DNA of 64,000 bases from Hypericibacter adhaerens (GTDB lineage Bacteria > Pseudomonadota > Alphaproteobacteria > Dongiales > Dongiaceae): NCBI RefSeq assembly GCF_008728835.1, contig NZ_CP042582.1, positions 3,894,217-3,958,216 on the forward strand. Direction: 5' to 3'. Position 1 is the first letter of the stretch. Each line of letters begins with the position of its first letter. The position numbers were made by a program, and so were the translations under genes. Of this stretch, positions 3,770 to 18,143 are shown piece by piece. Below the pieces are notes generated by a model. The model saw only the letters and a program-made list of their open reading frames with translations. It was not told where the DNA came from and searched no databases.

Positions 3770-4417
3770 ATGGAGCTCGCCGGCATCACCCGCGACGGCC
3801 TCGCCGATTATTTGGCGCGCCAGCTCGACCATTTCTTTCCCGATGGAGCCGCGGATACGCGCGCCGGCATCGCCCGCGACCTGGGCGAGGCGCTGGGCCG
3901 GCTCAACCGCTGCATCAATGCGGTCAGGATGTGGCCGCAGGGCCGTTTCCACTATCTCCATTCCGAGCAGAACACGATCTTCCTCGCCTATCTCGCCAAC
4001 ACGGTCTGGCGCAACCGGCAGGACACGGCGCTCGCCACCAAGCTGTTCTATCTCAACAAGAGCCTGAACGGCTTCCACTGCTTCTACGACACCGAGCTGC
4101 CGGAGCGTTTCTTCGTCGGCCATTCGGTCGGCATCGTGCTGGTGCGGCTGAAATACCCGGAATATTTCGCGATCTACCAGAACTGCACGGTCGGCAAGAA
4201 CCACGGCGCCGCCCCGGTGCTGGAGGAAGGCGTCGTGATGTATCCCGGCAGCGCCATCATCGGCGATTGCCATGTCGGCCCCCGCAGCTATATCGCGCAA
4301 GGCTGCTCGCTGGTCGACGCCGACAGCCCGGGCCATTGCCTGGTCTTCAACGCCGACCGCAAGCCCGTCTTCAAGACGCCCAAGCACGATATCCTCGCCG
4401 ACCTGTTCCGGCTCTGA
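3770..4417 (+). CDS. Serine acetyltransferase-like hexapeptide-repeat acyltransferase
   Basis: A 215-residue protein with an alpha-helical N-terminal half followed by left-handed beta-helix repeats (VVMYPGSAIIGDCHVGPRSYIAQGCSL). GKNHGAAP carries the His expected in the CysE-like acyltransferase active site. It is shorter than housekeeping CysE and lies 5 nt after the sugar-modifying genes, so O- or N-acetylation of the sugar or glycan is more likely than cysteine synthesis. The next gene on this strand is 800 nt away, so this is probably the last gene of the sugar operon. Confidence 0.78.
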   Translation: MELAGITRDGLADYLARQLDHFFPDGAADTRAGIARDLGEALGRLNRCINAVRMWPQGRFHYLHSEQNTIFLAYLANTVWRNRQDTALATKLFYLNKSLNGFHCFYDTELPERFFVGHSVGIVLVRLKYPEYFAIYQNCTVGKNHGAAPVLEEGVVMYPGSAIIGDCHVGPRSYIAQGCSLVDADSPGHCLVFNADRKPVFKTPKHDILADLFRL

Positions 4418-4478
4418 GCCGACACACATCCTCCTAGCGCCCTCCCCCCGGAAGATGGCCAGGGGCTTTTGCGGATTC

Positions 4479-4710
4479 GCCTCAGAACAGGGCCGATTCA
4501 AGGATCGCCAGCCCTCGAGCCGGGCGATGGCCGACGCGGTATCGGCCTCAGAACAGGGCCGATTCAAGGATCGCCAGCCCCCGCTCATTGACGCGCCGAT
4601 TGAAGCCTGCGCCTCAGAACAGGGCCGATTCAAGGATCGCCAGCCGCAGCGCGCCACAGTCTTCGCACTCGACCGGCCTCAGAACAGGGCCGATTCAAGG
4701 ATCGCCAGCC
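4479..4710. CRISPR. Short CRISPR array: four identical 35-nt repeats, three spacers
   Basis: Repeats begin GCCTCAGAACAG and end ATCGCCAGCC, at 4479-4513, 4545-4579, 4611-4645 and 4676-4710. All four are identical over 35 nt. The following base is C, C, G and C, so a 36-nt unit is possible. The spacers (4514-4544, 4580-4610, 4646-4675) are 31, 31 and 30 nt and unrelated to each other. The repeat can fold through GG-C-CGAT / ATCGCC with loop TCAAGG. No cas gene lies in the window, so type and activity are unknown. A 36-nt repeat with 30-nt spacers would fit type II or V, but that is inference. Confidence 0.87.
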
Positions 4711-4860
4711 CGAAATTGATCCAATCCTTTGTAAATACCCTACTTTCCTGTCTGATGGGTTCTCGAAAAACAAGCTCGGAACAGGAACCTATCAGGCAAC
4801 TATCAGGCGCCTGACGGAGGAGCCGCGCCCCCGCGAGATCGCCCAAGGGTAACTTTTAGT
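4711..4860. promoter_or_regulatory. AT-richer flank of the CRISPR array, candidate leader
   Basis: This stretch is clearly more AT-rich than its surroundings, with runs such as TTTGTAAATACCCTACTTTCC and GAAAAACAAGC, and lies directly against repeat four. It also has a short direct repeat, CTATCAGG, at 4790-4797 and 4800-4807. CRISPR leaders are usually AT-rich and abut the newest repeat, so transcription leftward on the minus strand is the likelier direction. All repeats are identical, so no worn repeat is available to confirm the polarity. Confidence 0.35.
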
Positions 4861-4863
4861 TTA

Positions 4864-4878
4864 GAACAAAATAGGAAC
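4864..4878. promoter_or_regulatory. LexA (SOS)-like box GAAC-N7-GAAC
   Basis: GAACAAAATAGGAAC matches the direct-repeat operator of alphaproteobacterial LexA (GTTC-N7-GTTC on the other strand) with exact 7-nt spacing. It lies between the array flank and the Rieske gene. I see no SOS gene beside it: rightward, 4879-5222 holds only short open frames and a C-rich hairpin, and leftward comes the CRISPR array. It may be a relic or may act on array transcription. Confidence 0.4.
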
Positions 4879-5013
4879 AATATCCAGCGGGAAGTTCCAA
4901 TCGGATGACGTCGCCCGAGGCCAAGCCACGAACTCCATTCATGGGCATGGCGCGCTTTCTTCACCCCCTCGAGGACAGAGCTATCGCATTTGACGACGCG
5001 CCTTGAGGTTTTG

Positions 5014-12097: not shown

Positions 12098-12193
12098 CCA
12101 TCATCCCCGCCGGACTCCCATTCCATGCAGGAACGGGGCTCCGGTGCCTTGGCAGGAAGCCTTGGCGTTCCCTTCCATGTAGGAGAAATTGCA

Positions 12194-13378
12194 ATGTCTC
12201 TTAACGTTATCTCCAACTACGCCGCGAACGTCGCGCATCGCAACCTGATGACGTCGGACTCGCAGGCGACTTCCTCGCTCGCCAAGCTGTCCTCGGGCAG
12301 CCGTGTCGTGTCGGCGAAAGACGACGCCGCCGCGATGGCGATCGGTGCGCGCTTGAACAGCACCGTCAACGCTCTGAAGCAGGCTTCGGTCAACGCCGGT
12401 CAGGGCGTGTCGATGCTCCAGATCGCGGACGGCGCCATGGCTCGTGTCAACGACGTTCTGGTCCGCATGAAGACGCTGTCGGTGCAGGCGGGTTCGGGTC
12501 AGCTTTCTTCGACCGAACGCGGCATGCTCGACACCGAGTACCAGTCTCTGGTGTCGGAAGTGACTCGTATCGCGGCGGCGACCGACTTCAACGGTCAGCA
12601 GCTCGTGAACGGCTCGCTGACCACGGTGCAGACCAGCAACACCTCGTCGGCCTTCCTCGTGGCCGACGGCGTTGCCAGCATCACGGCTCATGGCCTGACG
12701 GCGTCGACGTCGGACAACTACACGCTGTCCTACGACGGCACGACCGGCCATACCTTCACGCTGACGGGTCCGGGCGGCACGAGCTACACCGGCCAGATCA
12801 GCTCCAGCGCCTATGACAGCAGCAGCGCCATGAGCACCGGCACGGCCGTGAAGCTGACGGCCGCCAACACCAGCAGCGTTGGCGACATCGTCATCTCGCT
12901 CAATACCGCCTTCGACGCTGCGACGACCGTTGCGGCTTCGACGAACAACGGCATGCACTTCACGGGCTCGGACACGACCTCGTTCTCGTACAAGGTCGGT
13001 GCGGGCACGGATGCGACCAAGGACGTGATCACGGTTTCGGTCAACGGCATCAATGCGGCCAACCTCGGCCTGACCGGCACCGACATCACCACGGCCGCGA
13101 CGGCTGACGCCGCCTCGGATCTGATCAGCGCCGCCATCGACACGCTGAACACCGCGCGTTCGACGGTCGGTGCCTATCAGAACCGCCTCCAGTTCGCCTC
13201 CGACAACCTCGCGTCGGCGATCGAGAACTCGGAAGCGGCCCGTTCGAACCTGCTCGACCTGGACATCGCCCAGGAAATGACGACGTTCACGTCGAAGCAG
13301 ATCCTGACCCAGGCTGGTGTGTCGATGTTGGCCCAGGCCAACCAGATGCCCCAGAACCTGCTGAAGCTGTTCCAGTAA
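12194..13378 (+). CDS. Flagellin, filament subunit (copy 1)
   Basis: A 394-residue flagellin, exported by the flagellar type III system without a cleaved signal. The conserved D0/D1 N terminus runs from SLNVISNYAANVAHRNL to about residue 140, and the C-terminal D1/D0 ends MLAQANQMPQNLLKLFQ. The central domain (about 150-310) is rich in Ser, Thr and Gly, plausible sites for the adjacent OGT-type enzyme. ATG 12194 follows AGGAGAAA; upstream in-frame codons lie in the leader. Codon choice is richer in T-ending codons than in neighbouring genes, as in highly expressed genes. It is a paralogue of the flagellin at 16962. Confidence 0.95.
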   Translation: MSLNVISNYAANVAHRNLMTSDSQATSSLAKLSSGSRVVSAKDDAAAMAIGARLNSTVNALKQASVNAGQGVSMLQIADGAMARVNDVLVRMKTLSVQAGSGQLSSTERGMLDTEYQSLVSEVTRIAAATDFNGQQLVNGSLTTVQTSNTSSAFLVADGVASITAHGLTASTSDNYTLSYDGTTGHTFTLTGPGGTSYTGQISSSAYDSSSAMSTGTAVKLTAANTSSVGDIVISLNTAFDAATTVAASTNNGMHFTGSDTTSFSYKVGAGTDATKDVITVSVNGINAANLGLTGTDITTAATADAASDLISAAIDTLNTARSTVGAYQNRLQFASDNLASAIENSEAARSNLLDLDIAQEMTTFTSKQILTQAGVSMLAQANQMPQNLLKLFQ

Positions 13379-16796: not shown

Positions 16797-16961
16797 TTAT
16801 CCCTCACGAAAGACCCGAAGCGCGCGCCGTCCATCCCTGACGACGGTTCGCCACCGAGAAGGAAAGGGGCGGCAGCGCCGCATCGGGTTTGAGGACATGC
16901 CCACGCCGTGAGATGGGCCCCGAAAGGGCACGGCAGGCACCTGAAGTTCAGGAGACGAAAG

Positions 16962-18143
16962 ATGGCTCTCAACGCGATTTCCAACTACGCCGCCAACGTC
17001 GCGCACCGCAACCTGCAGAAGTCCGATATGGACGCGACCTCGTCGCTGGCGAAGCTCTCCTCAGGCAGCCGCGTGGTGTCCGCCAAGGACGACGCCGCCT
17101 CGATGGCGATCGGCTCGCGCCTCAACAGCCAGGTGCAGGGTCTGCGCCAAGCCAGCGTCAATGCCGGTCAGGGCGTGTCGATGCTCCAGGTCGCCGACGG
17201 CGCCATGGCCCGCATCAACGACGTGCTGGTGCGCATGAAGACGCTGTCGGTTCAGGCCGGTTCGGGCCAGCTCTCGAACACGGAACGCGGCATGCTCAAC
17301 ACCGAGTATCAGCTGTTGCTGGCCGAAGTGAACCGCATCGCGGCTTCGACCGAGTTCAACGGCAACCAGCTCGTCAACGGCTCGCTGACGACGGGAGGTG
17401 CCAGCGTCGGCACCGGCGGCGGCTTCGCGGTGGCCGACGGCGTGTCGAGCATCACCGGTCACGGCCTGACTACGGCATCCTCGGACAACTACACGCTGAG
17501 CTACAGCTCCGGTAACGCGACCTTTACCCTGACCGACGGCTCCAACAGCTATACGGGCGCGATCTCCTCCAGCGCGATGGATGCTTCCGGCAACATGATC
17601 ACCGGCGCCGGCGTGAAGCTGCTGCCGACGGGCACCAACACGGGCGATCTGGTCCTCTCGCTGAATACGGCCTTCCAGTCGGCCACCACGGTCGCGCCCT
17701 CGGCTTCCGCCGGCGGCCTGCAGTTTGCCGGCGCCAGCTCGGCCACCTTCAGCTTCAAGGTCGGCACCGGCACGGACGTGACCAAGGATGTGATCAGCGT
17801 CTCGATCGACGGCATCAGCGGGGCCAATCTCGGCATCAACGGCACCGACATCACGACGGTCAGCACGGCCGACGCCGCGTCGGACGCGCTCGGCAACGCG
17901 ATCGACGTCTTGAACAACGCCCGGGCCTCGATCGGCGCCTACCAGAACCGCCTCCAGTTCGCCGCCGACAATATCGCCTCGGCGGTGGAAAACACGGAAG
18001 CCGCCCGATCCAACCTGCTGGACCTCGATATCGCGTCGGAAATGACGACCTTCACCTCGAAGCAGATCCTGGTGCAGGCCGGCGTGGCGATGCTGGCCCA
18101 GGCCAACCAGATGCCGCAGGACCTGCTCAAGCTGTTCCAGTAA
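16962..18143 (+). CDS. Flagellin, filament subunit (copy 2)
   Basis: A 393-residue paralogue of the flagellin at 12194. It shares the N-terminal block (NYAANVAHRNL, LAKLSSGSRVVSAKDDAA) and the C-terminal block (MLAQANQMPQDLLKLFQ) almost unchanged, and also the same type of central domain. The differences are concentrated in residues about 145-300. AGGAGA 7 nt upstream supports ATG 16962. Its codons are closer to the bulk genome than those of copy 1. It has its own sigma-54 promoter and is followed by its own fliS-like gene. Confidence 0.95.
   Translation: MALNAISNYAANVAHRNLQKSDMDATSSLAKLSSGSRVVSAKDDAASMAIGSRLNSQVQGLRQASVNAGQGVSMLQVADGAMARINDVLVRMKTLSVQAGSGQLSNTERGMLNTEYQLLLAEVNRIAASTEFNGNQLVNGSLTTGGASVGTGGGFAVADGVSSITGHGLTTASSDNYTLSYSSGNATFTLTDGSNSYTGAISSSAMDASGNMITGAGVKLLPTGTNTGDLVLSLNTAFQSATTVAPSASAGGLQFAGASSATFSFKVGTGTDVTKDVISVSIDGISGANLGINGTDITTVSTADAASDALGNAIDVLNNARASIGAYQNRLQFAADNIASAVENTEAARSNLLDLDIASEMTTFTSKQILVQAGVAMLAQANQMPQDLLKLFQ

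Follow-up and report, generated by a model that had tools for sequence, protein, structure and literature searches.

How new CRISPR arrays originate is an open question, and a short array standing apart from any cas genes in Hypericibacter adhaerens raises it directly: is this array what is left of an older system, a working annex of a system encoded elsewhere, or an array that began where it now stands? We analyzed the 64,000-nt stretch of chromosome that carries it (the window) together with the whole single-contig genome. Within the window, the 35-nt sequence GCCTCAGAACAGGGCCGATTCAAGGATCGCCAGCC is present in four perfect copies with spacings of 66, 66, and 65 nt, and the array as a whole (4479-4711) is composed of four units of 35-36 nt and three mutually unrelated spacers of 29-31 nt (Table 1). 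A first-pass annotation of this DNA had described four identical 35-nt repeats at 65-66-nt periods with three unrelated spacers, which we confirm; near-identical direct repeats in the 23-47 nt class, regular spacing, and near-constant spacer length are the structural properties of a CRISPR array. Immediately 3′ of the 35-mer, copies 1, 2, and 4 have a C and copy 3 has a G. The exact match of spacer 1 to its protospacer begins one base past the 35-mer, and base 4514 differs from the chromosomal neighbor of that protospacer; base 4514 therefore belongs to the repeat, and we took the working repeat as 36 nt (4479-4514) and spacer 1 as 30 nt. The differing 36th base of copy 3 indicates that one of the duplications may have been 35 bp long.

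The array is flanked on its left by a gene at 3770-4417 with a weak hexapeptide-transferase match only and on its right by a Rieske oxygenase gene. The earlier observation that no cas genes lie nearby holds, the only Cas1 and Cas9 RuvC_III matches being about 1.4 Mb away. Searches against Rfam gave zero matches in the window or at the cas locus. Plasmid blastn matches to the repeat (Azospirillum and others) had E values of 0.2–8 and were treated as chance; the Azospirillum match was one single stretch without an array, and the other plasmid regions, judged at the level of their annotation only, carried no array. Elsewhere in the window, two flagellin-like genes (12125-13378 and about 16890-18140) lie ~4.77 kb apart and are 75-81% identical in parts.

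Table 1. Features of the array and of the dispersed element that hosts it (window positions unless a contig is given; a point marks a feature without assigned strand).
Feature	Position	Strand	Remarks
Array-hosting element copy	4454..4890	-	Unit single and spacer-less in the 8 other copies
Repeat copy 1	4479..4514	.	36 nt; first 35 the same in 4/4 copies
Spacer 1	4515..4544	.	30 nt; exact copy in own chromosome, TPR gene, G000:C1:5546802-5546831
Repeat copy 2	4545..4580	.	
Spacer 2	4581..4610	.	30 nt; no match in source searches
Repeat copy 3	4611..4646	.	36th base G, not C
Spacer 3	4647..4675	.	29 nt (30 nt with a 35-nt repeat); no match in source searches
Repeat copy 4	4676..4711	.	
Element body beside array	4712..4860	-	First ~90 bp 43% GC vs about 66% in array; would form the leader side under a - strand reading
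LexA-type box GAACAAAATAGGAAC (GAAC-N7-GAAC)	4864..4878	-	Sequence match only
Element copies, G000:C1	556k, 1184k, 2138k, 2140k	-	
Element copies, G000:C1, remaining	2529k, 3570k, 3899k, 4395k, 5282k	+	3899k is the window copy, 4454-4890

The repeat is derived from part of a dispersed intergenic element of ~240 bp that occurs nine times in this genome, and the two ends of the element, searched separately, fall at the same nine places. In the eight copies outside the window, the unit is contiguous with its left and right flanks. These single units share 26-31 of 36 positions with the 36-nt repeat, and since the window repeats are mutually identical over 35 nt, the expansion is recent, which bears out the earlier reading of perfect repeats as the sign of a young array. 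The eight diverged single-unit paralogues indicate that the array developed where it stands, out of a non-CRISPR element, and they leave the companion proposal, that it is the remnant of a recent loss, unsupported. It had also been considered that the unit might occur genome-wide outside arrays; this was correct as to its presence elsewhere and not as to its form, the other units being diverged and single, and it is these units that hold the key to the origin. Conservation within the family does not stop at the left edge of the repeat, and it is lower in the right half of the repeat, so that the 36-nt stretch is a unit in the window copy only and not family-wide.

Within the comparison set, the right-end motif of the element was confined to this genome, the left-end motif gave only scattered two-mismatch matches outside this genome, the element was unseen in 20 relatives, and the element motif had no match among GTDB genomes; apparently, the nine-copy element is species-specific. 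In the sister species, the intergenic gap between conserved blocks is about 131 bp, compared to about 815 bp here, and the insertion is lacking; the comparison sample held one genome per species, with the genus otherwise represented by one genome, and no intermediate states were seen there. A conserved small protein within the element was rejected as a candidate because the copies differ in reading frame, and because the consensus fold has an unfavorable covariation term (+1.92), we claim no conserved RNA structure. The LexA-type box is set between -35-like (TTGACA/TTGATA-like) and -10-like hexamers of the element, and this promoter-like sequence points at the array, which lies downstream of it if read on the - strand. 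The box follows the spacing GAAC-N7-GAAC, the alphaproteobacterial LexA-site pattern, suggesting from motif content that LexA may control the promoter-like sequence.

We then asked where the spacers come from. Spacer 1 is identical over 30/30 positions to a chromosomal sequence 1.65 Mb from the array, inside the gene for a 569-aa TPR protein, and the number of such exact matches expected by chance is about 1e-10 or less, and in any case below 1e-9. The flanks of this protospacer are CCTGGTGATC if read on the - strand and CCGAAATCGC if read on the +. For spacers 2 and 3, no source turned up in this genome, in 20 relatives, in phage and plasmid collections, or in IMG/VR (searched with 23-24-mers), and the peptide encoded by spacer 3, used as a degenerate pattern against IMG/VR, gave no match either. 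The comparison with phage and plasmid sequences suggested in the first-pass annotation thus yielded no match for spacers 2 and 3, and the one source found, that of spacer 1, is a gene of the cell itself. None of the three spacers resembles a spacer of the native array described below.

Whole-genome searches gave one Cas9 RuvC_III match (C1:5298572) and one Cas1 match (C1:5296979). The locus that contains them (L006) encodes a Cas9 of 1145 aa (TIGR01865, 620 bits), a Cas1 above the cut-off for the type II model TIGR03639, and Cas2; as cas9, cas1, and cas2 are the sole genes recognized there, the locus reads as type II-C. The effector searches covered Cas9 RuvC_III and the Cas3 core. A tracrRNA-like anti-repeat lies past cas9, at about L006:11268. 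The native array (C1:5284174-5296352) has 185 repeats of 36 nt, all identical, and 184 spacers; 179 spacers are exactly 30 nt, giving a period of 66 (36 + 30) that is now and then 65 or 67. It is a very long type II array in which none of the 185 repeats carries a mutation, and several of its spacers occur in duplicate, among them a run of three (spacers 7-9 = 13-15).

We compared all 184 native spacers with an 80-kb stretch of the sister genome that surrounds two initial matches. Two spacers matched with 1 mismatch in 30-31, there were a few weaker matches, and shuffled controls gave zero, which is consistent with a system that has acquired spacers. The stretch matched by several native spacers (G001:C1:4161166-4176800) is likely to be a prophage or another kind of mobile element. 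The few protospacers had no consistent 3′ or 5′ flanking motif, the best three 3′ flanks being GGCCATCT, GCGCAATA, and GGAAGGTG. For the second half of the native array, there were zero matches in 17 relatives and none that was convincing in phages.

Cas1–Cas2 integration at the leader-repeat junction produces a duplication of ~36 bp around a 30-bp insert. The window array has these same insert and duplication lengths, 30 and 36 nt, which are also those of the native array, and its periods of 66, 66, and 65 compare to 66 in the latter; the one Cas1 locus in the genome, of the type II model, is the candidate integrase. A 30-bp insert with a ~36-bp duplication, three times over, in a genome whose sole Cas1 belongs to a system of the same lengths, leads us to infer off-target integration. 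We thus consider it very probable that the window array is a neo-CRISPR locus, formed when the resident type II-C system integrated spacers off target into one copy of the dispersed element. The resident Cas1-Cas2 would have integrated 30-bp prespacers three times at a single off-target site of the element, each time with staggered cuts about 36 bp apart, as at the normal array, so that the 36-bp target was duplicated with every spacer; one non-CRISPR sequence would in this way have given rise to four identical repeats, and at least one prespacer would have been taken from the cell's own chromosome. The agency of Cas1-Cas2 and the order of events are inferred from the arrangement of the sequences. 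The similarity between window and native repeats is no higher than that of shuffled sequences, and the leader-end junctions of the two arrays have no clear motif in common, sharing only a C and a G on the two sides of the boundary.

If the array did not begin in this way, it could be the orphan array of a different CRISPR-Cas system that either has been lost or is encoded at another locus, an origin that would account for the perfect repeats, the regular spacers, and the absence of adjacent cas genes, and arrays of this type are common (review PMC8616872). We regard this origin as very unlikely, given that it is contradicted by the single-unit paralogues and that the repeat belongs to a longer dispersed element, which is conserved across the repeat boundary. 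Also against it, Cas1 occurs once, the exact repeat core is absent from about 85,000 GTDB species genomes, and 60 relatives are devoid of the repeat within 3 mismatches. The whole-genome search for the same repeat and for cas genes that had been suggested early on was productive as far as the single cas9 is concerned; on the other hand, no further copy of the repeat within 3 mismatches exists in the 5.87 Mb of the genome, and all Cas3 core matches fall under the family cut-off. Tandem repeat expansion or capture of filler DNA by ordinary recombination, with no CRISPR adaptation involved, draws on the fact that the host element is a dispersed repeat and that such repeats can change in copy number. 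Slippage would, however, copy the spacer along with the repeat, whereas the three spacers are unrelated, and a 30-nt piece from 1.65 Mb away, enclosed by 36-bp duplications and placed at the period of the resident array, is difficult to reconcile with it. We know of no ordinary recombination mechanism that gives a distant 30-nt insert flanked by 36-bp duplications, and hold this explanation to be just as improbable as the orphan array.

The array could alternatively be functional, serving the resident Cas9 in trans as a second array, since the genome has an intact-looking cas9-cas1-cas2 locus with a canonical-looking tracrRNA region and the promoter-like LexA-box sequence is directed at the array. 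The pairing energies point the other way. While the duplex of tracrRNA with the native repeat reached -68.6 kcal/mol, that with the window repeat was -20 to -22 kcal/mol in both orientations, which is the level of shuffled sequences, and the exact self-match of spacer 1 would be expected to be lethal in an active array unless the PAM is wrong. We therefore assign very little probability to a working trans-array, and the earlier suggestion that the array may be served by Cas proteins encoded elsewhere is without support. With no tracrRNA pairing beyond chance, processing and loading of Cas9 guides are unlikely, and the array is, according to these models, probably inert. For the neo-CRISPR locus that we favor, this inertness would account for the tolerance of the perfect self-match of spacer 1: transcripts with a non-matching repeat would be neither processed nor loaded into Cas9, and a self-derived spacer could be carried without killing the cell.

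The LexA-type box allows a further reading, namely that the resident Cas1-Cas2 favors the LexA-boxed element as a secondary acceptor and that SOS-driven loci seed arrays, this one being the first to be loaded. We consider it very improbable; if true, it would tie together DNA damage, adaptation, and the birth of arrays.

The kind of event proposed here is already known. Nivala, Shipman and Church are said to have presented, in Nat Microbiol 3:310 in 2018, putative natural neo-CRISPR cases from Yersinia pestis and Sulfolobus islandicus. PMC11788318 and PMC9456107 cite Nivala et al. 2018 for in vivo integration by Cas1–Cas2 outside arrays in E. coli. To the extent that these citing papers describe such loci, the window array resembles them in being an off-array chromosomal insertion by the host's own Cas1-Cas2 in which the target is duplicated as a new repeat. 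It is unusual, and differs from them as so described, in its type II-C host, its three successive spacers, its eight unfilled paralogues in the same genome that record the pre-integration site, and a repeat with no detectable similarity to the native one. Type II-C adaptation has been reported to take spacers from host DNA in Campylobacter jejuni (PMC4283603). Like the canonical type II-C arrays of C. jejuni PT14 (PMC4283603), the window array combines a 36-nt repeat with 30-nt spacers at a period of 66, but it has no adjacent cas genes and no match to the tracrRNA, and an unrelated intergenic element supplied its repeat. In Streptococcus thermophilus and S. mutans, ectopic spacer acquisition likewise involves type II systems and an unusual place of integration; in the accounts given in PMC5338259, PMC7999890, and PMC8265633, those events occur inside an existing array, whereas the window event created a new locus. 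The lack of cas genes is shared with isolated or orphan arrays (PMC8616872), which are usually taken as degenerate remnants, in contrast to the window array, which arose from non-CRISPR sequence.

As what appears to be a rare natural snapshot of the start of an array, the locus provides a before-and-after record in a wild genome, with eight unfilled sites, one site filled three times, and one spacer source known exactly, and it opens the genesis of arrays to direct testing in a type II-C host. It also advises caution in that some "orphan arrays" may be births and not deaths, and it suggests that a cell may tolerate a self-derived spacer if the effector cannot use the new repeat.

The element family itself shows some further regularities. 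The promoter-like sequence is co-directional with the replication fork in 8/8 copies for which the replichore is assignable, and the 2529k copy sits at the replichore switch (GC skew sign change near 2.5-2.65 Mb). The 5282k copy lies immediately upstream of a 101-aa ORF (L082:2978-3283, - strand) whose match to DUF5681 is marginal, and the 2140k and 3570k copies retain traces of the start region of the DUF5681-like ORF. On the basis of this position and these traces, the upstream region of a DUF5681-like gene may be the ancestor of the family.
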